A stretch of 64,000 nucleotides of DNA from Eubacteriales bacterium (lineage in GTDB: Bacteria > Bacillota > Clostridia > Lachnospirales > Lachnospiraceae): positions 28,543 through 92,542 of the forward strand of contig JAUNGC010000013.1 in the NCBI GenBank assembly GCA_030524745.1. Reading direction: 5' to 3'. Below, piece after piece: positions 46,593 to 64,000 of the stretch; within the stretch, counting starts at the first letter, position 1; each line of letters opens with the position of its first letter. The notes below the pieces were generated by a model. It saw only the letters and a list, made by a program, of their open reading frames with translations. It was not told where the DNA came from and did not search any database. The translations under genes were made by a program, and so were the position numbers.

Positions 46593-47016
46593 ATATATTA
46601 AGGATGTTAAAATGCTGAAATTTCCATCTTATATTGTAGACGACCTGAGTATTGGCCATGTTGAAATAGAAGGGTTGAAAGAAATCCCCTTTGAAATTAA
46701 GAGGTTTTTCTATATTTTTGGTTCAGGAAATGTCGGAATGGTTAGAGGAAAGCATGCGAATCGAAGATCGAAATTTGTTCTTCTTAATATAGCGGGCAGA
46801 AGTAAGGTAAAAACAATTGATGAGGATGGAAATACAGAAATTTATGAACTTAACCATCCATACGATGCCCTTTATTTACCGGAATATGTTTGGAAGGAAA
46901 TGTATGATTTCACAGAAGATTCCGTCTTAATGGTACTTACCAATGAATACTATGATAGTACGGAATATATAAGAGATTTTGAAGAATACGTTAAGATATT
47001 AAAGGAAGAACAATAA
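46585..47016 (+). CDS. FdtA/WxcM-family cupin, second copy
   Basis: A 143-residue paralogue of the preceding protein, overlapping it by 8 bases. PFEIKRFFYIFG and VRGKHANRR match the family, but the second histidine of the H-x-H pair is Asn59 (His57 kept). The RG-x-H form before it is closer to canonical QdtA than in the first copy. It may be an inactive partner, an isomerase of altered outcome, or specific for another sugar. The frame is open upstream to 46522, but GGGGAGAGA supports the ATG at 46585. Confidence 0.82.
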   Translation: MNKYIKDVKMLKFPSYIVDDLSIGHVEIEGLKEIPFEIKRFFYIFGSGNVGMVRGKHANRRSKFVLLNIAGRSKVKTIDEDGNTEIYELNHPYDALYLPEYVWKEMYDFTEDSVLMVLTNEYYDSTEYIRDFEEYVKILKEEQ

Positions 47017-47033
47017 GAAAGAAGGTTGTTGGG

Positions 47034-48125
47034 ATGGATGTTAAGTATTCTGTTTTAAAGAGAACATATGATTTGCATAGAATTGAGTATGAGGAGGCTG
47101 CTTTACGTGCGCTCAGATCAGGGTGGTATATTCTTGGAAATGAAATGGAAACGTTTGAAAAGCAATTTGCAGAATGGGCAGGTGTAAAACATTGTGTGGC
47201 TTTAAATTCTGGTACAGATGCTTTGATTCTCGCGTTTCGGGCACTTGGTATTCAAAAAGGCGATGAGGTTATTTGTCCTGCAAATACATATATTGCTTCT
47301 GTGATTGGCGTGTATGAAAATGGGGGAACGCCTGTTTTTGTTGATGCGGATGACCATATGGAAATTGATGCAGATGCCATAGAGGCTAAGATTACTGATA
47401 AAACAAAAGCGATTTTGCCGGTTCATTTGTACGGGCATCCCAGTAATATGGATAAAATCAAAGCAATTGCAGAACGGTATAATTTATCGATCGTAGAAGA
47501 TTGTGCCCAATCTCATGGAGCTACTTTTAATGGGAAATTGACTGGTACATTTGGCGATATAGGTTGTTTCAGCTTTTATCCTACGAAACCGCTGGGAGCG
47601 TTCGGGGATGCGGGTGCTATTGTGACCAATAACGATGAAATTGCTGAAAAAATAAGATTACTTAGGAATTATGGAAGTAAAAAAAAGTACTACAATGAGA
47701 TAAACGGGATCAATAGCCGCATGGATGAAGTGCAGGCTGCGGTTCTTCAAATTGGTCTAAAGTATCTGGAAGAGGGAAATAAAGAACGTCAGAAAATCGC
47801 AAACAGATATTTGACGGAAATAAAAAATCCGCTTGTGCAGTTTCAGGTTCCGTATGCAGAATCGAATCATGTTTATCATTTATTTCCCGTACTTGTGCAG
47901 GAACGTGATCGTTTTCAGAATTTTCTAAAGGAACATGGTATTGGTACGGCTGTCCATTATCCGATTCCACCCTATGTAGCCGAGTGTTACAAGGAATGGG
48001 GATATCAGTGGAGTGATTTTCCGAACGCGGCGAGGTACGCCAGGCAGGAGATCAGTCTCCCTATTTATGCAGGGCTGCCGGATGAGGAAGTGCAGTATGT
48101 GATTGATGTGATTAACCGGTATTAA
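47034..48125 (+). CDS. dTDP-3-keto-6-deoxyhexose aminotransferase (DegT/DnrJ/EryC1 family)
   Basis: A 363-residue PLP-dependent sugar aminotransferase. The PLP lysine is Lys185 in FSFYPTKPLGAFGDAG; other marks are VALNSGTDAL and VEDCAQSHGA. It is most like FdtB/QdtB, which aminate C3 of the dTDP-3-keto sugar made by FdtA/QdtA, and it directly follows the two cupin genes. The dTDP-sugar donor would come from rfbA (61472) and an rfbB not in the window. The likely product is dTDP-Fuc3N or dTDP-Qui3N; which one cannot be decided. Confidence 0.88.
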   Translation: MDVKYSVLKRTYDLHRIEYEEAALRALRSGWYILGNEMETFEKQFAEWAGVKHCVALNSGTDALILAFRALGIQKGDEVICPANTYIASVIGVYENGGTPVFVDADDHMEIDADAIEAKITDKTKAILPVHLYGHPSNMDKIKAIAERYNLSIVEDCAQSHGATFNGKLTGTFGDIGCFSFYPTKPLGAFGDAGAIVTNNDEIAEKIRLLRNYGSKKKYYNEINGINSRMDEVQAAVLQIGLKYLEEGNKERQKIANRYLTEIKNPLVQFQVPYAESNHVYHLFPVLVQERDRFQNFLKEHGIGTAVHYPIPPYVAECYKEWGYQWSDFPNAARYARQEISLPIYAGLPDEEVQYVIDVINRY

Positions 48126-48261
48126 AGGACGGTGTGTTACCTGCTATCGATAGCAGGAGACCAAAAGGTCTTGAAGTTATGGTCGCTCGAATCGTGTGAA
48201 ATGGAACATAACATACCGATACAGATGAAGATTAAACTTCAATTCCGATAATAGGAGGGTA
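48126..48261 (+). promoter_or_regulatory. structured intergenic leader between the aminotransferase and FemAB-like genes
   Basis: This 136-base gap contains a perfect 18-base palindrome (48140-48157), a second hairpin right behind it (48158-48171, AAAA loop), a GTTATG/CATAAC pair (48176-48181 and 48207-48212) and a TGAAG/CTTCA hairpin near 48222-48237. No T run follows, so it is not a plain terminator. I recognise no riboswitch class. Confidence 0.5.
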
Positions 48262-49281
48262 ATGGCATTGGATATAGTAAGAGTAACTCCAAGTGAATAT
48301 ATGGACTCTGTACCAGACAGACGGATTTTTTTTAATGAACCCAGCTTTACAGAACTTAACAGAGATAAGGTTGAAGAGATTTATTACTTACTTGTAAAAA
48401 AAGGTAATTCTCCTCGCTTTGGCATGATTCTTGGTGTTAAGGATGGCGTGGCAAAAAGCCCATTCTCAGCGCCATATGCGTATCCTGTTGTGATTAGCAC
48501 AGCCCATGTGGAAGCGTTTGATGAGGCGGTTGGTGCGCTGGAACGCTATTGTATCGACAATGATATTAAGGAGATAAGGTTTACCTTTCCCCCTTTTTTA
48601 TATGATGAGGATATATTAAGTGTATGGACAAGTGCGATGTATAGGGCGGGATATGAGCCGATAAGCATAGATATTAACTACATACTGGATTTAGAGGCAC
48701 TAAATCGGGAAGACTATGAGATGATTATTCCTAAGAAAGGAAGAAGTCATCTGAGAAAAGCAAAAGCTTCTGGAATAGAGATTGTTAGATGCGTTGAAGA
48801 GAAGGATATAGCAGAGGCCTATGAAGTTATAGTTGAAAATCACAATGCGAAGGGATTCCCAACTCATATGTCGTTAAAACAGTTGAAGGATACCTTTATA
48901 CTGGTGCCACACGAGGTTTTTCTTGCGAAACTTGATGGTAAAGGCATTGCATCGATGATTTACTATGAAACATCTAAAGACATTGTGGAGTGTATTTATA
49001 GCGGATATCTTCTGAAGTATTCAAATTCTGGTGTCATGAATTTGCTTAGCTGGTACGCCATCAGATTTTTCGGGGACAAGGGCTATAAATACATAGATAG
49101 AGCAACTGCAGGAAAAGACAGCATTCCAAATTACGGATTGTGCGACTTCAAAGAAAGCATAGGTGGAAAGAGAAGTCTGAAGTATTCATTCAGAAAAATT
49201 ATCGGGGGGGGGTACAGATCCCTTAGAATAGTTCTTTCCTTTAAATCAGAATCTGCCATTTCTTATCAGGAGGTGGCATGA
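48262..49281 (+). CDS. FemAB/GNAT-like acyltransferase, first copy
   Basis: A 339-residue protein of the GNAT superfamily in the double-domain FemAB/'BioF2-like' arrangement. An N-terminal half with FNEPSFTELNRDKVEEIYYL and FSAPYAYPV precedes a second half with KKGRSHLRKAKASGIEIV, NHNAKGFPTHMS, IASMIYYE and the ATAGKDSIPNYGLCDFKESIG end. FemAB proteins transfer amino acids from tRNA to lipid II, and relatives N-acylate amino sugars. Here an N-acylation of the 3-amino sugar is plausible. AGGAGG is only three bases from the ATG at 48262, so a TTG at 48268 may be the true start. Confidence 0.72.
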   Translation: MALDIVRVTPSEYMDSVPDRRIFFNEPSFTELNRDKVEEIYYLLVKKGNSPRFGMILGVKDGVAKSPFSAPYAYPVVISTAHVEAFDEAVGALERYCIDNDIKEIRFTFPPFLYDEDILSVWTSAMYRAGYEPISIDINYILDLEALNREDYEMIIPKKGRSHLRKAKASGIEIVRCVEEKDIAEAYEVIVENHNAKGFPTHMSLKQLKDTFILVPHEVFLAKLDGKGIASMIYYETSKDIVECIYSGYLLKYSNSGVMNLLSWYAIRFFGDKGYKYIDRATAGKDSIPNYGLCDFKESIGGKRSLKYSFRKIIGGGYRSLRIVLSFKSESAISYQEVA

Positions 49282-50255
49282 TGGATGAGAAGACGTTGTG
49301 GTATGTAAAAAGGGTAAATGCGGAAGAGTATAGAGACATTGTTCCAGACAGACGAATCTTCTTCAATGAGCCGGATTTCACAGAATTAAACAAAGATAAA
49401 GTTGATGAAATATACTACTTGGTCTTCATGCGTGAGAATTCAGCAAGATTCGGATTGATTACAGGTAGAGTCGGCTGTGAAATGCGCACACCGTTTTCGG
49501 CACCGTACTCTTATCCGGTAGCAATAATAAACGAATCCAAGCAAGAGACAATTGATGCAGCGCTGGATGTTTTTGAAGAGTATTGCATAGAAGAAGGCAT
49601 TGAATCTATACGTTTTATTTTACCACCACTTTTCTATGACGAGCACCAGATCAGCGGCTGGGTAAGTGCATTATATAGAAATGATTACCGCTTTGATAAT
49701 GTTGATCTGAATTATGCTCTGGACTTGAAAAAGCTGAATGTAGATGAGGAAACATATGGACAGTTAATCACGCAAAAGGGGCGCAAAGGATTGAGAAGAG
49801 CGAGACGCGCTGGACTTGATATTATCAAATGTAAATCGGAAAAAGAATATTTGGAAGCCTATAGAATTGTACAGATTGGTCATGATGCGAAAGGATTTCC
49901 AACACATCTTACTTTTGAACAATTGATGAGCACATTGAGGCTGGTTGGTCATGATGTATTCATTGTCCGTAAAGGTGATGTAGGAATTGTTTCAGAGTTC
50001 CTGTACAGAATCAACAATAGAATTGTTCAGGGAATTTATACAGGAACGCATCCAGACTATATGGAATGCAACGGAATGAATCTTTTGACATATTATACGA
50101 TTGGGTATTATGCAGAACAGGGCTTTGAGATATTGGACAAAGCGACAGCTGGAAAAGACAGTATTCCGAATTATGGGTTGTGTAATTTTAAGGAAAGCGT
50201 AGGTTGTGAGCGTAGCCTGAAATATACATTCAAAAAAGAGTTAAAGAAGGGATGA
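49278..50255 (+). CDS. FemAB/GNAT-like acyltransferase, second copy
   Basis: A 325-residue paralogue of the preceding gene, overlapping it by 4 bases. It repeats all its landmarks: PDRRIFFNEPDFTELN, FSAPYSYPV, QKGRKGLRRARRAG, GHDAKGFPTHLT and ATAGKDSIPNYGLCNFKES. The tandem pair clearly comes from duplication followed by divergence, since the end motif is almost identical while the middle differs. Two separate transfers onto one or two amino groups would explain keeping both. There is no membrane segment, so it acts in the cytoplasm on a nucleotide- or lipid-linked sugar. Confidence 0.72.
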   Translation: MMDEKTLWYVKRVNAEEYRDIVPDRRIFFNEPDFTELNKDKVDEIYYLVFMRENSARFGLITGRVGCEMRTPFSAPYSYPVAIINESKQETIDAALDVFEEYCIEEGIESIRFILPPLFYDEHQISGWVSALYRNDYRFDNVDLNYALDLKKLNVDEETYGQLITQKGRKGLRRARRAGLDIIKCKSEKEYLEAYRIVQIGHDAKGFPTHLTFEQLMSTLRLVGHDVFIVRKGDVGIVSEFLYRINNRIVQGIYTGTHPDYMECNGMNLLTYYTIGYYAEQGFEILDKATAGKDSIPNYGLCNFKESVGCERSLKYTFKKELKKG

Positions 50256-51058
50256 CTGGGATGGAGACATCGACGGTAGGAAATAAGAACCTCATTTCGG
50301 GTGAAGAGGAAAAATATGCGGACTTTTTAAAGAAACGCAATCTTGAAAAGACAAATTCCATAGATACAGTTGTTCATCCTGCGGATAATATCTATTCCAG
50401 ATATATAAAAAGAGGATTAGATATTCTGATAGGTATGTTTGCATTTGTCATTACGTTGCCGTTCAATCTGATATTCGGAATATGTACATTCTTTGATGTA
50501 GGATATCCGATTTTTTATAAGCAAACGAGGATTGGGAAAGACGGAAAACCTTTTGTCATGGTGAAGTTCCGTAATATGAACAACAAGACGGATTCTGATG
50601 GAAAGTTGCTTCCTCCTAACGAGAGAGTTACGAAATTCGGGAGATTTATGCGCAAGTTTTCTCTGGATGAACTTTTGAATTTCTGGTTTGTTATCAAAGG
50701 AGATATGAGCATCATTGGACCGAGACCTATGCCGGAGTTTTTTGTTGAGAGAATGAGTGAGAGACATAAAATGCGGCATGCTGTCCGCCCTGGTCTTGAA
50801 TGTCCATATACTGTACCAGAAAATAGCAGGTTGAACAATTATTATTGGAAGTTTGAAAATGATGTATGGTATGTTGAAAATGTCAGCTTTAAGACGGATA
50901 TATCGATGTTGGTGAAGCTTTTTAAACTTACTTTTAATATGAGAAATCGGGGAAATCATGCCGGCGGACTCAGTTATTTTGTGGGTTATGATGATGAAGG
51001 ACATGCGATAAGCCTGAGAGAAGCAAAAGAAACATTTAACTTGGAGTCTGTGAAATGA
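50252..51058 (+). CDS. phosphoglycosyl transferase (PglC/WbaP-type sugar transferase)
   Basis: A 268-residue monotopic phosphoglycosyl transferase that puts the first sugar-1-phosphate on undecaprenyl phosphate. After a soluble N-terminal extension of about 50 residues comes the re-entrant membrane helix (about 55-80). The family text KQTRIGKDGKPFVMVKFRNM, the catalytic Asp139-Glu140 pair in FSLDELLN, and GDMSIIGPRPMP then follow. It starts inside the stop of the previous gene (ATGA overlap). The first-sugar specificity is not readable. Confidence 0.93.
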   Translation: MTGMETSTVGNKNLISGEEEKYADFLKKRNLEKTNSIDTVVHPADNIYSRYIKRGLDILIGMFAFVITLPFNLIFGICTFFDVGYPIFYKQTRIGKDGKPFVMVKFRNMNNKTDSDGKLLPPNERVTKFGRFMRKFSLDELLNFWFVIKGDMSIIGPRPMPEFFVERMSERHKMRHAVRPGLECPYTVPENSRLNNYYWKFENDVWYVENVSFKTDISMLVKLFKLTFNMRNRGNHAGGLSYFVGYDDEGHAISLREAKETFNLESVK

Positions 51059-52032
51059 TGAAAGAATATGGTGGTTACTTACCTCTTGAGTTAAGAGAGG
51101 GTCATGAATTATTTGATACATATAACGGAGCGAAAGTGGCAAGATTTAATAGTGGAAGAGCATCTATCGCTGCCGCTGTTAAGTCTGTACATCCCCAAAA
51201 ATTATATATTCCGTATTATAACTGTGCTGTTGTCAGAGAGACTTTAGCAGCAGAGGGGGTTGATTACGAATATTATTATCTGGATGAAAATTTGGAACCG
51301 GCTATTGAAATAATAAATACTGATGAGTGGCTTATATACGTACATTACTTTGGAATTGCATCAGAAGAAAAAATGAAGAAAATAGCTGACAAATATAAAA
51401 ATGTCATTTTCGACAACACGCAGGCTTTTTTTGCGAAACCAATTCTTGATGGAAATTGCATGAATGTCTATTCACCGCGGAAGTTTGTTGGCCTCATAGA
51501 CGGAGGATATCTTGTATGGAGTGGTGAAAGAGAGGTTTCGGAAGATTATCCACAGGATATTTCCTGGGAGAGGGGCGGTTTTCTTTTAAAAAGTCTTGAA
51601 TTAGGAACTAACGCTGCGTACAAGGACAATCTCGATAGTAAGGTGTGTTTAGCTGATGGGATTAAGAGAATGTCAGTCTTAACCCGGCGGATGCTGAAGT
51701 CTTTAGACTATGATGATTTAGCAGAGAAACGTGACCGGAATTATAGAGTGCTGGTAAAAAAGTTTGAAGATGTAAATCTGCTGAAAGTGCCTATGCAGGG
51801 ATTTGCCCCGTTTGTTTATCCGCTTGTGATTGAGAATTCAGACTTAAGACGCAGAGTCGTAGAAAAAAAAATCTACGTACCGCAGTGGTGGAAATATCTA
51901 TTGGACGAGGTTCCAGAGGACTCTATAGAATCATGGCTAAGTCAATGGTTATTGCCACTTCCGGTTGACCATAGATACAATGAGAATGACATGGAAGATA
52001 TGGCTTCGATTATATTCCAGTGTTTAAAATAA
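51055..52032 (+). CDS. DegT-like PLP-dependent protein, divergent
   Basis: A 325-residue fold-type I PLP protein distantly related to DegT/StrS aminotransferases. FNSGRASIAAAV (about residues 31-42), the aspartate in VIFDNTQAFF (Asp120) and SPRKFVGLIDGG with the probable PLP lysine Lys143 are visible. It is shorter than usual and lacks the standard C-terminal text. It could be an aminotransferase or a dehydrase acting on a sugar or acyl compound. It overlaps the phosphoglycosyl transferase gene by 4 bases and precedes an ATP-grasp gene. Confidence 0.7.
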   Translation: MMKEYGGYLPLELREGHELFDTYNGAKVARFNSGRASIAAAVKSVHPQKLYIPYYNCAVVRETLAAEGVDYEYYYLDENLEPAIEIINTDEWLIYVHYFGIASEEKMKKIADKYKNVIFDNTQAFFAKPILDGNCMNVYSPRKFVGLIDGGYLVWSGEREVSEDYPQDISWERGGFLLKSLELGTNAAYKDNLDSKVCLADGIKRMSVLTRRMLKSLDYDDLAEKRDRNYRVLVKKFEDVNLLKVPMQGFAPFVYPLVIENSDLRRRVVEKKIYVPQWWKYLLDEVPEDSIESWLSQWLLPLPVDHRYNENDMEDMASIIFQCLK

Positions 52033-52063
52033 ATCACTAATAAAGATTTGGAGGAGAGAGAAA

Positions 52064-53365
52064 ATGTATCAAAACCCTGATATTAATGGAAAGAAACTGC
52101 TATTGCTCGGCGGCGTACAGACTGCTGCTGGGTTAATTGATATTTGTCACAGAAACGGGGCCTTTTTAGGCGTTTCTGACTATAATAAGGGAACTTATAT
52201 AAAACAAATAGCCGATGAATCGTTTGATGTTGACGCTTTCAATACGGAAGCTGTTATTAAACTGTGTAAAGAAAAGCATTATGACGGTGTCATTACACAG
52301 TTTGTAGACAGAGTTTTACCCTTGGCAGCGGAGGTCGCGGAAGGCATTGGCGCCTATTCTCCTTTCACGAAAGAACAGATTAGGATGTCCACGGACAAAG
52401 CGTTTTTCAAAAAGGTCTGCATGGAATATGGGGTTCCGGTTCCAGCGGTTTATGAAATCTCATCCGAGGAAGATATTGACAAGGATGATTCTATCCAATA
52501 TCCGGTGCTTGTGAAACCGGTTGACAGCAGTTCCAGCAGAGGACTTGTTGTGTGCAGAAATGCAAAGGAACTTAAAGAAGGCTTAAAAACCGCTAAATGC
52601 GCTTCTCATTCTGACAGGATCCTGGTGGAAGCCTACCTTCCTTATGACGAGATTAATGTTACCTATATTGCGCAGGATGGCGATATTCAGCTTGCCGCGA
52701 TTCATGACAGGTACTTTAATGAATCACAGAAGGGTTTCATGAAAGTTCCCGATATGTATATCTATCCGAGCCGTTATACCAATATGTATTATGAGACAGT
52801 CAATGACAAGGTTATCCATATGCTTAAGGGAATCGGTATCAAAAACGGTTCTCTGTTCATGCAAGCAGTCGTTCATGACGGAAAAATATACTTCTATGAA
52901 GCCGGAATGCGACTGAACGGTTGTAAGACCTATGAGATTCTGGAATGTGAGAATAACTATAATACGCTTGAACATTTAGCATATTACTGTCTTACTGGAA
53001 ATATGGGACAGTATCAGAAGTTCGATGCCCATTTCAAAAAATGGTATGCAACTTGGAATGTTATCGGTATTCCGGGAATGATGTGCGACAAATTTTTGAA
53101 CTTAGATGCACTGAATTCCTATCCCTGGATTATTAAGATAGGAAAGAGTTACGCGCCGGGAAGCAAAGTGAGAGAACACACAGAAGGTACTTTGCTGCAG
53201 CTTGTGGCGAGAATCCATCTCATGGCGGATAATAAAGAGCAGTTGTTTGAACGCATTGCTAAAATGCAAGAACTTTTTAAAGTGGAAGATGAGAGCGGAA
53301 ACAGTGTTATTCTTCCCGGACATGATGTGGAAGATCTGAGAAAGAGGATTGATTACGATCTATGA
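52064..53365 (+). CDS. ATP-grasp ligase in the polysaccharide locus
   Basis: A 433-residue ATP-grasp enzyme of the carbamoyl-phosphate-synthase-like group. A pre-ATP-grasp Rossmann region (KKLLLLGGVQTAAGLIDICH) precedes the ATP-binding core with YPVLVKPVDSSSSRGLV and ILVEAYLPYDEINV. The metal-binding strand is IYFYEAGMRLNG. The C-terminal 120 residues match no domain I know. It is unrelated at a glance to the ATP-grasp gene at 554. It may form an amide or ester on a sugar or its substituent, which is inference. The stop overlaps the epimerase start by 4 bases. Confidence 0.78.
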   Translation: MYQNPDINGKKLLLLGGVQTAAGLIDICHRNGAFLGVSDYNKGTYIKQIADESFDVDAFNTEAVIKLCKEKHYDGVITQFVDRVLPLAAEVAEGIGAYSPFTKEQIRMSTDKAFFKKVCMEYGVPVPAVYEISSEEDIDKDDSIQYPVLVKPVDSSSSRGLVVCRNAKELKEGLKTAKCASHSDRILVEAYLPYDEINVTYIAQDGDIQLAAIHDRYFNESQKGFMKVPDMYIYPSRYTNMYYETVNDKVIHMLKGIGIKNGSLFMQAVVHDGKIYFYEAGMRLNGCKTYEILECENNYNTLEHLAYYCLTGNMGQYQKFDAHFKKWYATWNVIGIPGMMCDKFLNLDALNSYPWIIKIGKSYAPGSKVREHTEGTLLQLVARIHLMADNKEQLFERIAKMQELFKVEDESGNSVILPGHDVEDLRKRIDYDL

Positions 53366-54264
53366 GCAAAGAACGAATCCTGATAACAGGAGCGAACGGA
53401 AATCTTGGCGGAGCGCTTGTGAAGGAACTGGCTGATAACACTCCGTATGAAGTCATAGCGGTCTCCAGCGATCAGGCGAAAATATACGACATGCTGGAAC
53501 GAGAGTGCGTTATACACAGGGAACGTGTTACCTCAATGAATAGTGATACCTTCTTTCATACAAACTGGTCAGATTTGGGTGTCTTTGCGTGTGTCCATAT
53601 GGCGTTTTCACGTGCAAACCAGTCAAAGGAGAGAATCGCAGCAAGTCTGGATTTTTCAAAAAATGTATATCGCAGATTGCATGAAATGAGCGTCCCGCGT
53701 ATTGTGTATCTCTCAAGTCAGTCCGTATACGGCGCTATATCGGAGTGGCGTAGTGAAGACTGTGCAGCGGCTCCGGAGTCCGTGTATTCTATGGCTAAGT
53801 ACGCCGGAGAAAAATTGCTGGAAGCCGAATTTACCGGGTCACAAACAGAGTTTTCGATACTGCGCCTTGATTATGTGATCCAAAGCCAAAACCTGGTTCC
53901 AGTTCTATGCCGAAGCGCAAAGGAAACTGGGACGATCAGGCTGCAGGGCGGAAAACAGACTTTTTCCTATATCGATAAGTCCGATGTGGCCAAAGCAATC
54001 ATTGCCCTGCTGGACTACAATGGCCCCTGGCAGAGAGTCTATAACGTTGGGCACGATCATATGCGCTACTCATTGCAAGAAGTTGCGGACATTGTTGCAA
54101 AGGTTGCTGAAAAAGACGGAAAGAATAAAATCAGTATTTCCCTTGAAGAAAATGACACGATTCTCTGGGCTGGGATGGACAGCGCACGTTTTATGAGTGA
54201 TACCGGTTGGCATCCATTGATGGATCTTTATCAGATGGTGGAAGAGATTTATAAGAAAAATTGA
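53362..54264 (+). CDS. NAD-dependent epimerase/dehydratase family protein
   Basis: A 300-residue extended short-chain dehydrogenase. The NAD-binding TGANGNLGGALV is at residues 8-19, the serine-rich strand is IVYLSSQSVYG and the catalytic Y-x-x-x-K is in VYSMAKYAGEK. The C-terminal substrate half is typical of sugar-nucleotide enzymes. It could be a 4-epimerase, 4-reductase or dehydratase. Start overlaps the ATP-grasp stop (ATGA), so the pair is translationally coupled. Confidence 0.86.
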   Translation: MSKERILITGANGNLGGALVKELADNTPYEVIAVSSDQAKIYDMLERECVIHRERVTSMNSDTFFHTNWSDLGVFACVHMAFSRANQSKERIAASLDFSKNVYRRLHEMSVPRIVYLSSQSVYGAISEWRSEDCAAAPESVYSMAKYAGEKLLEAEFTGSQTEFSILRLDYVIQSQNLVPVLCRSAKETGTIRLQGGKQTFSYIDKSDVAKAIIALLDYNGPWQRVYNVGHDHMRYSLQEVADIVAKVAEKDGKNKISISLEENDTILWAGMDSARFMSDTGWHPLMDLYQMVEEIYKKN

Positions 54265-55388: not shown

Positions 55389-56483
55389 ATGGGTATGATA
55401 TATTGCATAAACCGAATCAAAAAGGAAAAAGTGGCCGGGCAAAGGACAGCTGGAAAGAAAGCACCTGATGATATTGCCAGGATTGTCGAGAGCAAACTTA
55501 ATGGTGAGATTATACCCTTTTTTGAGCCTGATGGCAAAGGAAATCGATATATAAAAAGTTTGAAGAGTTATTTTATAAATATAGGAAACTGGAATCGGGT
55601 TTTCAAAAAGATTAAACCTGGCGATTGGGTTATTATACAGCATCCATATGAGGGAGCGAAGCAAGGCTATAAGAAAATTGAAAAATGCAATAAGTTAGGG
55701 GCAATAACAGTTGTTTTAATTCACGACATTTCGCTTGAACGAAAAGATATTGATTTTGTTGAATCTAATGTGTTGAGAAATATGACGATGAGAAGCGAAA
55801 CAGAAGTTTTAAAACTTTGCAAATATATTATCTGTCACAACCCAAAAATGAAACAGTATTTGATTGAGCACGGTATCAAGAAGGATAAGATATTCTGCCT
55901 TGGTATTTTTGACTATATATTTACGGGGACGGAGATTCCAGACAGGAAGTTCAAAAAAGAAATATGCGTTGCGGGGAATCTGTCAAAGAGTAAGAGCGGA
56001 TATCTCTATAAATATATGAAGGACCCCATAAATTGTGTTCTGAAACTGTACGGACCAAATTATGATGCGCAATCGGATGAGTGTATTCAATATATGGGAA
56101 CACTGCCACCTGATGAATTGCCGGGAAAACTTGAAGGCTCATTCGGATTAGTTTGGGATGGGAATGATACAAAGGGCTGCACAGGAGTTGCAGGTGAATA
56201 CATACGGATTAATAATCCGCATAAATGCAGCCTATATCTGGCCTCTAATATGCCGGTTATAATATGGAAACAAGCGGCACTGGCAGATTATATTGTTGAA
56301 AATGGACTTGGAATCGCGGTTGAAAAGCTTGAAGATATTAAGTTTGAATTAGCTGATTTAAGTGAAGAGAAATACAACATTATGATGGAGAATGTGAAAA
56401 GAGTAGGATGTAAAATAAGAAATGGAAGTAATTTTATTAATACGTTTAGTAAAATTAGAGAAGATATGTTGGAAGCAAAGTAA
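55389..56483 (+). CDS. galactofuranosyltransferase-like glycosyltransferase
   Basis: A 364-residue GT-B glycosyltransferase. The N-terminal half (NWNRVFKKIKPGDWVIIQHPY) and the C-terminal GEYIRINNPHKCSLYLASNMPVIIWK resemble the beta-1,6-galactofuranosyltransferases of streptococcal and lactococcal loci (WbbI-like). GVAGEY and WKQAALADYI sit in the donor site. The glf gene at 63567, which makes UDP-Galf, supports this donor. Composition is AT-rich like its neighbours. Confidence 0.78.
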   Translation: MGMIYCINRIKKEKVAGQRTAGKKAPDDIARIVESKLNGEIIPFFEPDGKGNRYIKSLKSYFINIGNWNRVFKKIKPGDWVIIQHPYEGAKQGYKKIEKCNKLGAITVVLIHDISLERKDIDFVESNVLRNMTMRSETEVLKLCKYIICHNPKMKQYLIEHGIKKDKIFCLGIFDYIFTGTEIPDRKFKKEICVAGNLSKSKSGYLYKYMKDPINCVLKLYGPNYDAQSDECIQYMGTLPPDELPGKLEGSFGLVWDGNDTKGCTGVAGEYIRINNPHKCSLYLASNMPVIIWKQAALADYIVENGLGIAVEKLEDIKFELADLSEEKYNIMMENVKRVGCKIRNGSNFINTFSKIREDMLEAK

Positions 56484-56642: not shown

Positions 56643-57956
56643 ATGCTTCAGCTGATGTTGTGGTTTATAGTGTTAATGATGCTTTTATTGTTTTGCTATA
56701 ATTTCTCAGATAAAGGAATAATAACACCGGAGATTATTTTCCTGGCAGGATTTATTCCTCAAGTGCTTCAGGCATTTTTTTATGTTAACAAATTTGAAAT
56801 TGATCTTTCGGATGAGACGCTCTTTGTGTTAATTCTGGGGAGCGTTTTATTCGTGTTCGTATCGTTTTGGTCTGCAAGATTCTTTCGCAAGTTTAAGAAA
56901 AGGACTTTTCAATACGGTCAAAGATACAAAGCACCCAGAATCGATAAGACAATCATCGTTGTGTTTACTGTGTTTGAAGTGTTAACTGTTTTAGTGACTA
57001 TCTATTTCCTGGTTTCTGCATATGGCACTTCATTGCAACGAGCCATTTACTTATTTCGAGCGCAATCGATGGTTGGATATCATGGCGTTGATATAGAAGT
57101 TCGTATGCCTGGATGGTTACGTCTTGCTAAAAGAATTACAACAGCTTCCGGTTATTTCTGGGGCTATGTTTTAATGCAACAAATAATCTTAAAGAATAAA
57201 GAAAATCGAAAGCTTATTATTGCCAATTTCTTGCTTAGTGCTGCAAATAGCTTTATATCTACAGGCGGAAGGAAAGGAATCTTCCTATTAGTGATAGCAA
57301 CTCTGATGGATCTATATATTGTTTATGGGATTAATACTAATTGGAAGAGGAGAATGAAACCTAAGACAGTCATTATGCTGATTGTTTTTGGCTTTGTATT
57401 TGTAGGAACGTTTAAGATAGCGGGGGAGGCTGCAGGAAAAACAATAAACTATGATTTTGGCGATTATCTGGCAGTTTATTTATCAGCACCATTGAAGAAT
57501 CTTGATATTTTTATAAGAGAGGGCACATTCGGTATTTCTGATATATCACAATCAGCTTTGTTTGCTCATCTCGTACAATACTTTAATGCAAGGGGCTATT
57601 TGAATCCTTATCAAGATTCTTTTACATATAATCATGTCAATGGGATAAACATCGGTAATGCATATACGACATATTTCAGCTATTTACATGACTTTGGGTA
57701 CATTGGGTTAGTGACATTTGTCACCTTTAGCGCGTTACTATGCCAGTACTTGTTTCAGAAGATAAAGAAAGCAAATGCTTACGATATATCTGCTGGAACA
57801 ATACTATACTCATATTTGGTTTCAAACCTTGCATTTTCATTTTTTGGTAGTTTTTTTATCACTTCTATATTTGATATGACATTTTTTTGGAACTTATTCG
57901 TTTGGATAGGGCTTAGCATAATCGTTAAAGTAAAATTCGTAATAAGGCGAAGATGA
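56643..57956 (+). CDS. O-antigen/capsule repeat-unit polymerase (Wzy-like)
   Basis: A 437-residue polytopic membrane protein with about eleven hydrophobic segments and a large extracytoplasmic loop (about residues 270-340), the layout of oligosaccharide repeat-unit polymerases of the O-antigen polysaccharide polymerase Wzy type. A STGGRKGIF stretch and the loop sequence NAYTTYFSYLHDFGYIG, with the final helices, match that family. Wzy proteins share little sequence, so the call rests on topology and the wzx, phosphoglycosyl transferase and chain-length genes around it. Confidence 0.82.
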   Translation: MLQLMLWFIVLMMLLLFCYNFSDKGIITPEIIFLAGFIPQVLQAFFYVNKFEIDLSDETLFVLILGSVLFVFVSFWSARFFRKFKKRTFQYGQRYKAPRIDKTIIVVFTVFEVLTVLVTIYFLVSAYGTSLQRAIYLFRAQSMVGYHGVDIEVRMPGWLRLAKRITTASGYFWGYVLMQQIILKNKENRKLIIANFLLSAANSFISTGGRKGIFLLVIATLMDLYIVYGINTNWKRRMKPKTVIMLIVFGFVFVGTFKIAGEAAGKTINYDFGDYLAVYLSAPLKNLDIFIREGTFGISDISQSALFAHLVQYFNARGYLNPYQDSFTYNHVNGINIGNAYTTYFSYLHDFGYIGLVTFVTFSALLCQYLFQKIKKANAYDISAGTILYSYLVSNLAFSFFGSFFITSIFDMTFFWNLFVWIGLSIIVKVKFVIRRR

Positions 57957-58027: not shown

Positions 58028-59995
58028 ATGAACAATGCAATTACACAGAGGCTAAATGCCTGGTCTACTGACAGGAAGAAATACGAAAGAATTAATCCGG
58101 GTGTAAATACATATGCTTCTCGAATAAGGTCAATGGTATACCTCAAGACTATCCCAATTAAAAAGAGCGGCGGAAAAACTATGCAATTGTCTTCTCTTAT
58201 TCAACGTGCCAAAGTGATTGATAAAGGATACGGCAATTTTTTCTATTCACTTGACGAGAAATGCGTGCCTCTATTATCTGGAAAAGTCATAGATAATATG
58301 CCTATTGATTACTCCGTTATAGTGGAGTCCTCTCTTGCCGATCTTAGAAAGAAGAATGAGGATACGGTAAATAATATTTCTAAGCAAAATCTTCGGGTGC
58401 TTGACATCGTTGAAAAATATCTACGGTTTCTTCTGCCGCAGATCAACAAAAATATTGCTAAGGAATGTTTGGAAAGTATCCTGAGCCGGCGTGCTGAATC
58501 GCTGGAGGAAGCCCTTCAAAGAATATTATTTGTCAACCAACTTTTATGGCAGAGTAAGCACACGCTTGTGGGTTTAGGAAGAATAGATAAGATTCTTAAT
58601 AGATTTGAGATTGATGATCGTTCTAAGACGATCATTATGGATTTTATGCGGACCCTTCATGAATTCTATAATTATAAAAGTAATTCTTTAATGGGTGATA
58701 CCGGTCAAATATTCATTCTCGGTGGTTTAGAACCAGATGGTAACTATTTTTGCAATGACTATACATATCTGTTCATTGAATGCATCAAGGATTTAGGACT
58801 GCCTGATCCAAAAGTATTACTGCGTGTTAGTGCCAACATGCCGGAAGATCTGCTGAAGTTAGCCACCGAAAGCATTGCTACAGGCGTGGGGAGCCCGCTT
58901 CTTTCAAACGATGATGTTGTTATTCCGGCTCTTCTGGATTTCGGATACACAGAAGAAGATGCTTTCGGATATGGAACCTCAGCATGTTGGGAGCCTTTGG
59001 TTATTGGAAAATCGCTCGAACAGAATAATATTGCTTCTATTTTGTATGGACGTGCTGCCCATGATACATGTGTTGACGACGCATTCACTGGTTGCAAGTC
59101 ATATGATGAAGTAATTGAAATATTCAAGAAACATCTTGACAATGAGATTCATATTGCTTTAGAAACTATTGATAAAATTGAATGGGAATATGATCCTTTG
59201 GTGACATTATTTACAAAAGGGTGCCTGGAAAAAGACTTGGATATATCTCAAGGCGGAACCATTTATAACAATTATGGCTTGCTGACCGAGGGGATGTCAT
59301 CGGCGGTTAATTCGCTTTTAAACATAAAACGATTTTGCTTTAAGCAAGAAAAGGTGTCGCTGGAAACCGTTAAAAATTGTATTTATTCTAACTTTGAGGG
59401 CTACAGTGAAGAGAAAGAACTGCTTTCATTGAATGCTGATGGATTTGGCACAGATTCAGAGGAAGCGATTGAACTCACAAATGAGATTCTCCAATATACA
59501 ATTGTTCAGCTTAAGGATTATAGGAACAAATTTGGCGGGAAGGTGAAGTTTGGCCTCAGTTCTCCAAACTATGTAAAGAATGGATTGAAAGTTGGAGCAA
59601 CAGCTGACGGGCGGCTTGCTTATACTCCATTTGCCACCCATATTTCCAGAGAGAAAGGTGACCCGATTACAGAAATTGCAAACTTCGCATCAGGGCTCCG
59701 TTATGAGGGGATAAATGCGAACGCTAATGTGGTCGATGTCGTTATTCAGCCAAATCTCATTGTGGACAATATAGATAAGTTTGTGCAGTATCTTATGGCA
59801 ATTATTAAGAAAGGCGTTTTTCAAATTCAATTTAATGTGCTTTCATACGAAAAACTTGTGGATGCAAAAGCCCATCCTGAATTATATCCTGATCTGATCG
59901 TGCGAGTGTGGGGTTTTAGCGCCTATTTCAAGGATTTACCAGAAAGCTATCAGGATCAACTGATTAAACGAGCCAAGGAAATGGAAAGGGTCTAA
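58028..59995 (+). CDS. glycyl radical enzyme (dehydratase/lyase type), compact form
   Basis: A 655-residue member of the pyruvate formate-lyase/glycerol dehydratase family. Family landmarks in order: LQRILFVNQLLWQSK and GLGRIDKIL (about residues 164-190), the thiyl site ACWEP with Cys320 and Glu322, GGTIYNNYG (about 415), FGTDSEEA, KVGATADGRLAYTPFA (about 521-536), FQIQFNV (about 597), then RVWGFSAYF with the radical Gly629, 26 residues from the C-terminus. The C-x-E at the active site is that of dehydratases and decarboxylases; pyruvate formate-lyase has Cys-Cys. It is 100-200 residues shorter than usual, mostly at the N-terminus. It lies between wzy and wzx; its activase is at 62657. Confidence 0.9.
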   Translation: MNNAITQRLNAWSTDRKKYERINPGVNTYASRIRSMVYLKTIPIKKSGGKTMQLSSLIQRAKVIDKGYGNFFYSLDEKCVPLLSGKVIDNMPIDYSVIVESSLADLRKKNEDTVNNISKQNLRVLDIVEKYLRFLLPQINKNIAKECLESILSRRAESLEEALQRILFVNQLLWQSKHTLVGLGRIDKILNRFEIDDRSKTIIMDFMRTLHEFYNYKSNSLMGDTGQIFILGGLEPDGNYFCNDYTYLFIECIKDLGLPDPKVLLRVSANMPEDLLKLATESIATGVGSPLLSNDDVVIPALLDFGYTEEDAFGYGTSACWEPLVIGKSLEQNNIASILYGRAAHDTCVDDAFTGCKSYDEVIEIFKKHLDNEIHIALETIDKIEWEYDPLVTLFTKGCLEKDLDISQGGTIYNNYGLLTEGMSSAVNSLLNIKRFCFKQEKVSLETVKNCIYSNFEGYSEEKELLSLNADGFGTDSEEAIELTNEILQYTIVQLKDYRNKFGGKVKFGLSSPNYVKNGLKVGATADGRLAYTPFATHISREKGDPITEIANFASGLRYEGINANANVVDVVIQPNLIVDNIDKFVQYLMAIIKKGVFQIQFNVLSYEKLVDAKAHPELYPDLIVRVWGFSAYFKDLPESYQDQLIKRAKEMERV

Positions 59996-59999
59996 ACAA

Positions 60000-61475
60000 A
60001 TGGCATCAAAACCGGGAAAAAGCATCAAGAAGAATTATATATATAATGTAAGTTACCAGATTCTGGTACTACTTACGCCACTTATAACAACGCCATACTT
60101 ATCAAGAACTCTTGGAGCTGATGGTGTTGGAACTGTAAGCTATGCAGAATCAATTGTGTCCTATTTTGTGCTTTTTGCCACATTTGGAATGACTACATAT
60201 GGTCAACGAGAAGTATCATATGTGCAGGATAGCAGAGAAAAACGGACAGTTGTTTTTTGGGAAACGAAGATTTTGGAAGTTATTACCAGTTGTATATCTC
60301 TCCTGATTTATCTTCCAATGGCGATTAGGCAGCCGAACTCCACCATGTATCTGGTTCTGGCTTTGAATATTGTCGCAGTAATTGCAAATGTTACATGGTT
60401 CTTCCAGGGCATGGAAGAGTTCGGAAAGATTGTACTGCGTAATGTAATCTTTAAGTTTATCAACATTGTATATATATTTGTATTCGTTAAAACAAAAGAT
60501 GATATTGTCATTTATGCATTCGGCCTTGCATTCTTTCTCTTTCTTAGCAATGCCTCTCTTTGGTTCTATTTGCCAAAGTATATTGGCAAGATTGACTTTA
60601 AAGCAATACATCCTTTTAAGAATATCAAGGTTGTAATATCTTTGTTTGTTCCGACTATTGCGGTTCAAGTCTACACAGTTCTTGATAAAACGATGATAGG
60701 GTTGATCACAAAGAGCGCATTTGAGAACGGATACTATGAACAGGCCATTAAGATATCAAAGATGGTTTTGACAATAGTTACTTCCCTGGGTACCGTGATG
60801 GTTCCACGGATTGGTTCCCATTATGCAAAAGGTGAAACTGAGATAGTCAGTACGCTTATGTATCGAGCTTATCAATTTGTGTGGTTTATGGGTATTCCTC
60901 TATGTTTTGGATTACTCGGAATCGCTTCAAATTTCGTGCCGTGGTTTTATGGAGATGGATTTGATAAAGTTGTTCCCCTGTTAAGCATTCTTGGATTCCT
61001 GGTATTGGCAATTGGAATTAATAATGTAACAGGAATTCAATATTTCATTCCAACTGGTCGGCAAAACCTGTTTACCTTAACTGTTATGATTGGAGCAGTG
61101 GTTAATTTCGTATTGAATTTAATTTTGATTCGCTTTTATCAGTCGATTGGAGCGGCCATAGCGTCCGTTGTTGCAGAAACGGTAATTGCGATGGTACAAA
61201 TTTATATAGTAAGAAATGAATTATCACCAAAAAAGATTGTCTTTAGTTCGTGGCATTATTTTGTTTCTGGTACTGTAATGTTAGTTGCTTTAAGAATATT
61301 TAATAGATTTTTGACGCCCAGTATTATTAATACATTTATCATGATAGCTTTTGGGGCTTTAATATATTTCGGCGTACTTTTCATTATGAAAGATTTGTTT
61401 ATGATGAGGTACTTTAATATAATTATAACAAAAGGTAAAAAGATTATTGTAAAGATTAAGGATCACTCAAAATGA
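60000..61475 (+). CDS. lipid-linked oligosaccharide flippase (Wzx-like)
   Basis: A 491-residue MOP-superfamily flippase with about 14 transmembrane helices that moves undecaprenyl-linked repeat units across the membrane. The N-terminal LLTPLITTPYLSRTLGADGVG is the family's most conserved segment. It starts four bases after the stop of the glycyl radical enzyme gene, so the two are surely on one transcript. Its stop overlaps the rfbA start by 4 bases. Confidence 0.94.
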   Translation: MASKPGKSIKKNYIYNVSYQILVLLTPLITTPYLSRTLGADGVGTVSYAESIVSYFVLFATFGMTTYGQREVSYVQDSREKRTVVFWETKILEVITSCISLLIYLPMAIRQPNSTMYLVLALNIVAVIANVTWFFQGMEEFGKIVLRNVIFKFINIVYIFVFVKTKDDIVIYAFGLAFFLFLSNASLWFYLPKYIGKIDFKAIHPFKNIKVVISLFVPTIAVQVYTVLDKTMIGLITKSAFENGYYEQAIKISKMVLTIVTSLGTVMVPRIGSHYAKGETEIVSTLMYRAYQFVWFMGIPLCFGLLGIASNFVPWFYGDGFDKVVPLLSILGFLVLAIGINNVTGIQYFIPTGRQNLFTLTVMIGAVVNFVLNLILIRFYQSIGAAIASVVAETVIAMVQIYIVRNELSPKKIVFSSWHYFVSGTVMLVALRIFNRFLTPSIINTFIMIAFGALIYFGVLFIMKDLFMMRYFNIIITKGKKIIVKIKDHSK

Positions 61476-62374
61476 AAGGTATCATTCTCGCGGGCGGGTT
61501 CGGGACCCGGCTTTATCCACTGACGATGGTAACAAGTAAACAATTACTCCCGGTATACAACAAGCCGATGATTTATTATCCATTGTCCACGCTGATGCTG
61601 GCACGGATTCAGGACATTCTGATTATTTCCACGCCGGAGGACACGCCGCGCATTCGGCAGCTTCTTGGCGATGGATCATCTTTTGGCATTGCCCTGTCCT
61701 ACGCAGTCCAGGAAAAGCCCGAGGGGCTTGCTCAGGCATTTACAATCGGGAAGGACTTTATCGGCGATGACAGCTGCGCTATGATTCTTGGCGATAATAT
61801 TTTCTACGGAAACGGTCTGGGGCATAAGCTTTCATCGGCAAGAAAAATGGCAGAGGGTGGACAGGCTTGCGTCTTTGGGTATTATGTGGAAGATCCAGAG
61901 CGGTTCGGCATCATGGAATTTACAAAAGAAGGAAAAACGGATGACGGCGTAAAGGTGCTTTCCGTAGAAGAAAAGCCTAAGACACCAAAATCCAACTACG
62001 CCATTGTGGGCTTGTACTTCTATCCTGCCGGTGTGAGTCAGAAGGCAGAGTGTGTCAGGCCCAGTGCGAGAGGGGAACTGGAGATCACCACGCTGAACGA
62101 TATGTATCTCCAGGAGGGGCGACTGAACGCTTTGCTTCTGGGCCGCGGTTTTACGTGGATGGATGCTGGAACATTCAATAGTCTTCGCAAGGCGACCAAT
62201 TTTGTTTGCATGATTGAGGAGTACCAGGGCATGACGATTTCTTCCCCAGAGGAGATTGCCTACCATATGGGGTGGATTGACGATGAAAAGCTCCGGCTGA
62301 GTGCGCAGCGGTATGGCAAAAGCCCTTATGGTGAGCACCTTAGGGCCGTGCTGGAAGGAAAAGTTGTACTGTAA
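61472..62374 (+). CDS. rfbA: glucose-1-phosphate thymidylyltransferase
   Basis: A 300-residue RmlA/RfbA forming dTDP-glucose. GGFGTRLYPLTMVTSKQLLP at the N-terminus, ILGDNIFYG, the FGIMEF strand and TWMDAGTFNSL are all intact. It supplies the dTDP-sugar route used by the ketoisomerase-like and aminotransferase genes at 46128-48125. rfbB and rfbC are not in the window and may lie beyond it. The gene is GC-richer than its neighbours, closer to the left half of the window, which suggests a different history from the AT-rich block. Confidence 0.96.
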   Translation: MKGIILAGGFGTRLYPLTMVTSKQLLPVYNKPMIYYPLSTLMLARIQDILIISTPEDTPRIRQLLGDGSSFGIALSYAVQEKPEGLAQAFTIGKDFIGDDSCAMILGDNIFYGNGLGHKLSSARKMAEGGQACVFGYYVEDPERFGIMEFTKEGKTDDGVKVLSVEEKPKTPKSNYAIVGLYFYPAGVSQKAECVRPSARGELEITTLNDMYLQEGRLNALLLGRGFTWMDAGTFNSLRKATNFVCMIEEYQGMTISSPEEIAYHMGWIDDEKLRLSAQRYGKSPYGEHLRAVLEGKVVL

Positions 62375-62656
62375 GTAATCGTGGTGCAGCGGGGAAAAAT
62401 CAGATTGTGATGGAAAGAATATGAAGATAATAGTAGGGAAGAATGGGACATAGATTCGCCTTCACAAAAAAAAGGATGACGTTTTATTTCGCGTACCTTT
62501 CTGACTGGAAAACGAAGTGCATTGCACCTGAAATGACACAGTTTTCGCCCATTATAGAATGCTTATCATTGTTTGTAACTTTATAAAACATTGCACAAAT
62601 GGCTAAAATAAAGGCCTTTTTGTGCAAAATAATTAAGAAAGTATAGAGAGAAAATA
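62375..62656. other. non-coding gap before the activase gene with inverted repeats
   Basis: These 282 bases hold no supported gene. They contain a palindrome GTGCATTGCAC (62517-62527), and a 9-base perfect inverted repeat TTGCACAAA/TTTGTGCAA (62591-62599 and 62619-62627) centred about 48 bases before the activase start. TTGCAC thus occurs three times counting both strands. I see no clear -35/-10 pair. Confidence 0.5.
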
Positions 62657-63499
62657 ATGAAGGATAAGAATACAATTCTGATAACCAATATCCAGAGATT
62701 TTCACTTCATGATGGTCCCGGAATTCGCACAACTCTATTTCTTAAAGGGTGCAGCCTTCGCTGTCCGTGGTGTTGCAATCCGGAAAATTTGTTCTCTCAG
62801 CCACAGGGCTATATGAAGGATGGAGTACCTGGTAAATATGGAATGTATTATTTTTCTGATGAAATAGTTAAGGAATGTTTGAAGGATTACAGCTTTTATG
62901 GAGGGAAGCTGCAGGATCCGAATCAATGGAATATTACTGCATCTAATCAAATTCAACAATTGCCAGGTGGTGTTACGTTCTCGGGCGGGGAAGCTCTTCT
63001 GCAGATGAAGGCTTTGGTACCAGTGTGCAAGGCATTACATGAAAAAGCTGTACATCTAGCGGTTGAGACTTGCCTGTTTTGTCCTACATTCGATGTGCAG
63101 CTTGCAATTGAGCATATTGATCTTTTCTATGTTGATATGAAGATATTGGACTCAAAACGATGCGAGTCTGTTGAACATGGAAATCTTGCTTTATATTTTG
63201 ATAATCTAGATATACTTATGAGAAGTGCAAAGCCTGTAGTCATACGAGTGCCGGTTATTGGACAAAGAACGGATGATGAAGGAAACCGCAGATTAGTGCA
63301 TGAACTAATAAAAAAAAGCAAGGATGATGGAGGGATAATATTAAAAATTGAACTTATTAAAGAGCACAGTCTTGGAGAGAATAAGTACAAATCTTTAAAT
63401 ATGCAGATGGATTATCACGGTGTAGAAGACAGCCTGATGGATCAATATAAAGAAGAAATGTTGGATATTGGGATTCCTGTTGAGGTGTGTAGAATATGA
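62657..63499 (+). CDS. glycyl radical enzyme activating enzyme (radical SAM)
   Basis: A 280-residue radical SAM activase that installs the glycyl radical on its partner. FSLHDGPGIRTTLFLKGCS leads into the cluster motif C-x3-C-x2-C (Cys32, Cys36, Cys39), then NPEN, the GGE motif in GGVTFSGGEALLQ (about residues 101-113) and VDMKILD. The insert between the cluster motif and GGVTFSGGE lacks the eight-cysteine ferredoxin-like domain of most non-PFL activases. It is separated from the radical enzyme gene (58028) by wzx and rfbA, and no other glycyl radical enzyme is in the window. Confidence 0.92.
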   Translation: MKDKNTILITNIQRFSLHDGPGIRTTLFLKGCSLRCPWCCNPENLFSQPQGYMKDGVPGKYGMYYFSDEIVKECLKDYSFYGGKLQDPNQWNITASNQIQQLPGGVTFSGGEALLQMKALVPVCKALHEKAVHLAVETCLFCPTFDVQLAIEHIDLFYVDMKILDSKRCESVEHGNLALYFDNLDILMRSAKPVVIRVPVIGQRTDDEGNRRLVHELIKKSKDDGGIILKIELIKEHSLGENKYKSLNMQMDYHGVEDSLMDQYKEEMLDIGIPVEVCRI

Positions 63500-63566: not shown

Positions 63567-64000
63567 ATGTTTGATTATTTAGTAGTGGGGTCAGGTCTTT
63601 ATGGAGCTATTTTCGCTCATGAGGCGAAAGCAAAAGGCAAGTCTGTTTTGGTTATTGATAAACGCCCGAATATCGGCGGCAATGTCTACACTGAAAAAGT
63701 GGAAGGCATCAACGTCCATAAATATGGTGCGCATATCTTCCATACGAACAATAGGAGAGTCTGGGAATATATTACGCAGTTTGCGGAGTTCAACCGTTTC
63801 ACAAATTCTCCTGTAGCGAATTACCATAATGAACTATATAGCCTTCCTTTTAACATGTATACCTTCAATAAGATGTGGGGTGTTGTGACACCGGAAGAAG
63901 CCGAAGCTAAGATCGCCGAGCAAAGGAAAGAAATTACGGGTGATCCGTATATGGTAAATAACCAGTCCTCCGGACAAAATAATGCCAGCCCAAAGGCTGG
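63567..64000 (+). CDS. glf: UDP-galactopyranose mutase, N-terminal part (runs off the window)
   Basis: The first 144 codons are visible. MFDYLVVGSGLYGAIFAHEA carries the FAD fold, then DKRPNIGGNVYTEK and INVHKYGAHIFHT, and the substrate segment FTNSPVANYHNELYSLPFNM are close to Glf. The enzyme makes UDP-Galf, matching the Galf-transferase-like gene at 55389. AAGGAG precedes the ATG. After the codons for ITGDP (about 63951) the expected NLEEQAISLVG text is replaced by unrelated residues including NNQSSGQNN, and a hairpin begins, so the gene may be interrupted just there. Confidence 0.88.
   Translation, partial: MFDYLVVGSGLYGAIFAHEAKAKGKSVLVIDKRPNIGGNVYTEKVEGINVHKYGAHIFHTNNRRVWEYITQFAEFNRFTNSPVANYHNELYSLPFNMYTFNKMWGVVTPEEAEAKIAEQRKEITGDPYMVNNQSSGQNNASPKA

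Follow-up and report, generated by a model that had tools for sequence, protein, structure and literature searches.

Short glycyl radical enzymes kept beside flippase and glycosyltransferase genes probably modify a sugar during surface-polysaccharide synthesis

A 64,000-nucleotide stretch from a Lachnospiraceae genome (Eubacteriales bacterium, assembly GCA_030524745.1, contig JAUNGC010000013.1, positions 28,543 to 92,542; hereafter the window) carries, within a surface-polysaccharide locus, genes for a short, oxygen-sensitive glycyl radical enzyme (GRE) and its radical S-adenosylmethionine (SAM) activase. The two proteins represent a separate, uncharacterised branch encoded in capsule gene clusters, and their probable task is to eliminate or rearrange a portion of a sugar prior to export. 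Sequence comparison across 17 loci established that the pair is kept alongside flippase and glycosyltransferase (GT) genes, that the activase is a member of the radical-SAM subfamily that activates GREs, and that the catalytic residues are kept. The reading judged fairly likely is that the pair constitutes a glycyl radical system dedicated to surface polysaccharides, by which an activated sugar, possibly of the galactofuranosyl type, would undergo radical C-O elimination.

The window GRE matched the Pfam families PFL-like (7.1e-58, 197.2 bits; threshold 24.3) and Gly_radical (2.1e-13, 51.2 bits; threshold 22.2), and on these superfamily domain matches the open reading frame (ORF) is a genuine GRE. 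The thiyl and radical residues reported in the first-pass annotation, which was made from the letters of the DNA, were all present: Cys320, Glu322, and Gly629 were invariant in 16 of 16 aligned intact family proteins, and Cys320 and Gly629 were also matched in 19 of 19 other aligned GREs. The cysteine motif it had assigned to the activase was confirmed as well, with C32-x3-C36-x2-C39 unchanged in 15 of 15 aligned activases including that of the window, and the product exceeded the NCBIfam TIGR02494 (GRE activase) cut-off (195.8 versus 174.35 bits). An insert with extra cysteines was missing from 10 of these 15 activases and present in the other five. None of the curated GRE families accommodated the window protein. 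The best was TIGR01774 at 236.3 bits versus a cut-off of 678.2 (201-282 bits for the family loci of 16 genomes), followed by the equivalogs for CutC, HypD, sulfopropanediol dehydratase, HPAD, indoleacetate decarboxylase, and PRK09983 (PflD-type) at 106-189 bits versus cut-offs of 1000-1150, and by the pyruvate formate-lyase model TIGR01255 at 37.7 bits versus 994.2. Pyruvate formate-lyase has two adjacent cysteines in its active site, and all 16 intact family proteins carry C-W-E.

Relatives were sought with the window GRE protein at E <= 1e-80, a threshold that more distant members would escape. Positive genomes numbered 11 of 397 in the family of the source genome (itself included), 8 of 392 in the order, 3 of 291 in the class, and 1 of 299 in the phylum (the source genome alone); the sets overlap and contain 16 distinct positive genomes. 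A scan of genome contigs added one further relative (42%), L005, from an uncultured Tenericutes (Mycoplasmatota) metagenome-assembled genome, giving 17 family loci with 16 intact copies. The copy in L029 (GRE region 5538-7136, draft genome) is broken by in-frame stops, with intact copies elsewhere. The GRE was often missing from other genomes of the same genera, a patchy spread such as that of capsule genes. Viral contigs contained no relative, the best 20 of 115 plasmid records were ordinary GREs only (24-28% identity), and no further family member came from searching around G406 and G734; the G712 locus (L088) was left unused.

Gene neighborhoods were compared by clustering the ORFs called in stretches no longer than 20 kb (13.6 kb for L005, 14.5 kb for L029, and 5 kb for L035), with 22 kb for the window. 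The activase was present in all 17 family loci within three genes of the GRE, adjoining it in 11, separated by the flippase gene wzx alone in four, and in two (the window and L033) by wzx together with a single sugar gene. Wzx was encoded in 14 loci (in L026 by a start only, at the stretch edge) and in 12 of them lay directly beside the GRE or was parted from it by the activase alone. Among the loci without Wzx, L024 encoded five GT2-type domains and L027 encoded GTs and an ABC-2-type permease by reading, such that Wzx or GTs were found in 16 of the 17. As a control, 13 of the 23 places (our own count) where the same genomes encode a non-family GRE were fetched; no Wzx homologue was near any of these 13, and isolated GT or sugar-transferase matches were near two. 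No nucleotide-sugar synthesis or reductase gene was conserved alongside the pair across the 17 loci. The DegT-like and ATP-grasp enzymes of the window, suggested in the first-pass annotation as users of the GRE product, were unsupported in that role and were rejected, with the epimerase gene, as product-processing partners, all being singletons in the clustering. A common thiamine pyrophosphate (TPP) enzyme, aldolase, or phosphonate partner was likewise rejected, none being conserved over the family loci.

A tree of 35 GREs placed the 16 intact family members in a single clade (support 100/100, stem 0.97). This tree and the accompanying position table omitted L043 (annotated like YbiW, with a similar score), L046 and L048 (frames that end lacking a typical GRE C-terminus), L069 and L070 (such a motif absent), and the broken L029 copy. 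The nearest rows were L073, L051, and L074, the latter two on long branches with unsure placement. By eye, the loci of these three rows encode sugar-binding proteins, ABC permeases, and regulators, and in the nearest-branch locus of the window's own genome two Pfam-confirmed GH32 enzymes follow the GRE; because the nearest rows sit in sugar-uptake or glycosidase loci, the branch around the family clade also looks carbohydrate-related. Locus L076 of that genome (contig C30, 8850-11804) encodes a second short GRE with RVWGF and an activase near a sugar ABC transporter and LacI-type regulator (by reading) and two GH32 enzymes, apparently an uncharacterised carbohydrate-linked GRE. Locus L075 (8866-11888) encodes a GRE of 693 amino acids with C-W-E and RVWGW, the nearest row to the capsule clade, and an activase beside sugar-transport genes (by reading).

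Within the family, the motifs ACWE and RVWGFS were invariant in 16 of 16 intact proteins, and positions specific to it (15-16 of 16 members and at most 1 of 19 other GREs) include W321, N333, N334, K507, H538, F553, D570, F630, and D636. In the alignment to glycerol dehydratase (1r8w), N90, N334, and S511 of the family stand where that enzyme has what we take to be the pocket residues H164, D447, and Y640, and K507, which is invariant, stands at Q636. The net charge of the first 70 residues was +4 to +15 in 14 of 16 members, whose remaining body is acidic, and -7 to +7 in 24 other GRE frames, an approximate comparison using the first Met of stop-to-stop frames. The basic N-terminal segment could, we infer, bind the membrane where lipid-linked sugars sit.

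Two outcomes had been named in the first-pass annotation as grounds for abandoning its proposal that radical chemistry makes or tailors a component of the polymer. Grouping with a characterised catabolic family was not seen in the tree, and the window GRE remained below every curated GRE cut-off; homologues were not mainly outside polysaccharide loci, with L028 the one locus placed among glycan loci on weaker evidence. As neither outcome occurred, a role in making or tailoring the polymer by radical chemistry is well supported by context, with elimination rated likelier than decarboxylation.

A GlfT1-like GT2 was encoded immediately upstream of the GRE in L020, L021, L023, L026, L030, and L031. 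Nine aligned GTs from these loci and L027 all matched the NCBIfam GlfT1 model (47 bits for the one shown in full, far under the cut-off of 330) and also a rhamnosyltransferase model (lower than GlfT1 in the one shown), and in a PDB profile search the two best matches were galactofuranosyltransferases. Two fusions were observed: a GlfT1-like GT2 and the GRE share one frame of 988 amino acids in L027 (9010-11976), and in L024 (10911-13151) the activase carries a fused GT2 that is more distant (74 bits, no DDD motif). Galactofuranose markers (Glf, a GlfT1-like GT, or the galactofuranosyltransferase-like GT of the window), a set picked after the family loci had been viewed, occurred in 12 of 17 family loci and in 2 of 21 Wzx loci taken from genomes negative for the GRE (one-sided Fisher test, p = 1.4e-4); without the weak L024 match the family count is 11 of 17 (p = 5e-4). 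GlfT1-like GTs alone occurred in 8 of 17 versus 2 of 21 loci (p = 0.012; 7 of 17 without L024, p = 0.028) and Glf alone in 5 of 17 versus 1 of 21 (p = 0.05); both were at 0 of 8 in an earlier, smaller control of Wzx loci. The enrichment test is weakened by the late choice of markers and by marker queries that were themselves family-locus sequences (matches to a query's own locus excluded), by control Wzx genes that were selected by similarity to the window Wzx-type gene and are mostly more distant, by loci that are not independent, and by the weak L024 match. A link at the genome level was rejected as evidence because 53 of 56 genomes encode Glf whether or not they carry the GRE, and the locus-level enrichment alone was kept.

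In the favored mechanism, the activase would, under anoxia, place a radical on Gly629, which would move to Cys320 as a thiyl; Cys320 would take a hydrogen from a carbinol carbon of the sugar and, with Glu322 as base, the ketyl radical would lose the neighboring hydroxyl to leave a deoxy-keto or deoxy-aldehydo sugar. These steps are proposed because known GRE eliminases work in this way, and a sugar substrate because of the gene context. Since the pair has no conserved companion gene for sugar-nucleotide synthesis or for a reductase, the substrate would most likely be an already activated sugar (nucleotide- or lipid-linked) at the membrane face rather than a free small metabolite. It may be a galactofuranosyl unit, the least certain step of the proposal. 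The altered unit would then be transferred, flipped (usually by Wzx), and polymerised, and from GRE chemistry it follows as a prediction that the surface structure would depend on anoxia. A narrower form, regarded as doubtful, has the GRE as a diol dehydratase on galactofuranose itself, either UDP-galactofuranose or a lipid-linked galactofuranosyl residue. The exocyclic C5-C6 glycol, exposed in the furanose form and likened to glycerol or propanediol, would upon radical dehydration yield a 5-deoxy-6-aldehydo or 6-deoxy-5-keto furanose.

Besides the near-universal Glf and the after-the-fact choice of markers, several observations weigh against elimination on an activated, possibly galactofuranosyl, sugar. 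Five of the 17 family loci lacked a galactofuranose marker in the stretch read (one only 5 kb long), and control locus L103 combines a Wzx of similar type with Glf and a GlfT1-like GT but had no GRE match in an earlier search, such that this Wzx type may follow the glycan rather than the GRE. L028 had no match to the Wzx and GT queries of one search and a single weak GT2 match (54 bits) in another, and its other glycan signs were a fusion of an IspD-type cytidylyltransferase with a short-chain dehydrogenase and a WbsX-like gene by reading. The low end of the family N-terminal charge overlaps that of other GREs, and the basic segment is lacking in L024 and L028, sister proteins in the tree from loci that both lack Wzx. 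No reductase or aminotransferase that would use up a carbonyl product was conserved with the pair.

This last point is also consistent with the GRE decarboxylating its substrate or cleaving a C-C bond (for example, in a uronic-acid or carboxyethyl-type group) rather than dehydrating it, an alternative considered unlikely but retained because the C-x-E motif also occurs in glycyl radical decarboxylases, including Cys500/Glu502 of indoleacetate decarboxylase (PMC6181972). All 16 members matched both decarboxylase models at E <= 1e-10; however, the window GRE scored 106 bits in these, under the 174-189 bits of the HypD, CutC, and PRK09983 models, and the top five PDB entries matched by the family profile are named dehydratase, formate acetyltransferase, or PFL2, none of them decarboxylase. 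Known GRE eliminases use small-molecule substrates, and the pair might instead be a lyase furnishing a non-sugar decoration (polyol, acyl, or phosphonate-type) for the polymer, to which a slightly lower likelihood is given. LicD-like genes, cytidylyltransferases, TPP enzymes, aldolases, or a Stealth protein in some loci (partly by reading) may add such groups, but no such partner was conserved over the 17 loci, and the recurrent partners were GTs and the flippase, including the single GT-GRE and GT-activase fusions. Characterised GREs are mostly catabolic, yet a catabolic or fermentative enzyme located by chance inside a capsule locus is highly improbable given the Wzx or GT genes in all but one family locus, their contrast with the 13 Wzx-free neighborhoods of other GREs in the same genomes, and the separate clade.

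The polysaccharide locus of the window is summarized in Table 1. The same block as the GRE also encodes CpsB/CapC, Wzz, an AAA ATPase, a sugar transferase (Bac_transf), and a GT2. The first-pass annotation placed the GRE between wzy and wzx, of which the wzx assignment stood, whereas wzy is plausible and unproven because the hydrophobic segments of the upstream gene were accompanied by no Pfam match. The last gene is incomplete because the contig and the window end together.

Table 1. Features of the polysaccharide locus around the GRE gene (window coordinates).
Feature	Coordinates	Strand	Remarks
Locus-specific sugar genes	46128..54264	+	No conserved set with the GRE; two FdtA-type ketoisomerases, PseC/FdtB-like aminotransferase, tandem homologous pair (FemAB-like by reading), sugar transferase, DegT-like (by reading), ATP-grasp, epimerase
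Galactofuranosyltransferase-like GT	55389..56483	+	NF007326, 255 bits, under cut-off of 420
Probable Wzy polymerase	56643..57956	+	About nine hydrophobic segments (simple hydropathy count); no Pfam match
GRE, short, 655 amino acids	58028..59995	+	Thiyl Cys320, Glu322, radical Gly629; basic N-terminal segment of about 70 residues
Wzx-type flippase	60000..61475	+	Pfam Polysacc_synt 1.3e-24; begins four bases beyond GRE end
RmlA glucose-1-phosphate thymidylyltransferase	61472..62374	+	417 bits, over TIGR01207 cut-off
Radical-SAM GRE activase, 280 amino acids	62657..63499	+	Compact form without auxiliary ferredoxin-like insert
UDP-galactopyranose mutase (Glf)	63567..63998	+	By likeness to other Glf genes; cut at contig end

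Further features were observed in these loci. In the window, tandem FdtA-type ketoisomerase genes (46128-47016) with an overlap of about 70 bases are followed by an aminotransferase gene, two tandem homologous proteins resemble FemAB (48262-50255; the first without a Pfam match and neither with a PHROG match), and a DegT-like aminotransferase-fold protein by reading had no Pfam, NCBIfam, or PHROG match (51055-52032). A PHROGs search with three side genes found nothing. In L033 (196-5292), genes by reading suggest phosphonate decoration (TPP decarboxylase, alcohol dehydrogenase, nucleotidyl/aminotransferase, and LicD).

To our knowledge, known GREs are fermentative, catabolic, or class III ribonucleotide reductases. 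In searches of open-licence papers no listed title or abstract opening linked a GRE to surface-glycan synthesis, an absence that is not proof, and many abundant gut GREs have no known function according to a review (PMC11574389). If the proposal is correct, a clade devoted to building surface glycans would give glycyl radical chemistry a biological role it has not had before, some capsule structures could be built only without oxygen, and deoxy or keto sugars would be reached by a route unlike the NAD- and PLP-based ones; if galactofuranose itself is dehydrated, a surface sugar would be produced only without oxygen. The adjacency and fusion of the GRE with GTs make its substrate directly testable.

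By sequence, the window GRE falls in the same family as the PFL2/glycerol-diol dehydratases (TIGR01774: glycerol dehydratase, propanediol dehydratase, CutC, HypD, PflD, and YbiW), with which it shares Cys-x-Glu, the C-terminal Gly loop, and a radical-SAM activase partner. It is shorter (655 versus about 780-840 amino acids), and the family profile alignment to glycerol dehydratase starts only at residue 149 of that enzyme, some 70 residues further in. The family also differs in RVWGF versus RVAGY, in Asn at the presumed H/D pocket positions, in the basic N-terminal segment, and in the glycan-synthesis context. Isethionate lyase (IseG/IslA) is a GRE eliminase that cleaves the C-S bond of a C2 sulfonate in catabolism. 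The anionic sulfonate group is bound there by Arg187, Gln191, and Arg676, with Phe680 in contact (PMC6453916). K507 and S511 of the window GRE have the same spacing as Arg676 and Phe680 (PMC6453916), an equivalence drawn from spacing rather than direct alignment, which hints that the substrate carries an anionic group. Isethionate lyase is not among the proteins of the tree made here and scores below the dehydratases against the family profile. The uncharacterised sugar-utilisation GREs of L075 (693 amino acids), L076 (684), and L077 (763) are the nearest branches, two of the three being long and of unsure placement, and two of the proteins are short; that of L075 has C-W-E and RVWG in common with the family and that of L076 has RVWGF, but all three adjoin sugar ABC transport genes (by reading), have activases with a Cys-rich stretch, and lack the basic N-terminus. 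If dehydration holds, the family would join the nucleotide-sugar dehydratases, namely the short-chain dehydrogenase/reductase (SDR) 4,6-dehydratases and the RfbH/AscC-type pyridoxamine phosphate (PMP) dehydratases, in supplying deoxy sugars for surface glycans, although these are unrelated proteins with NAD or PLP/Fe-S chemistry and no protein radical.

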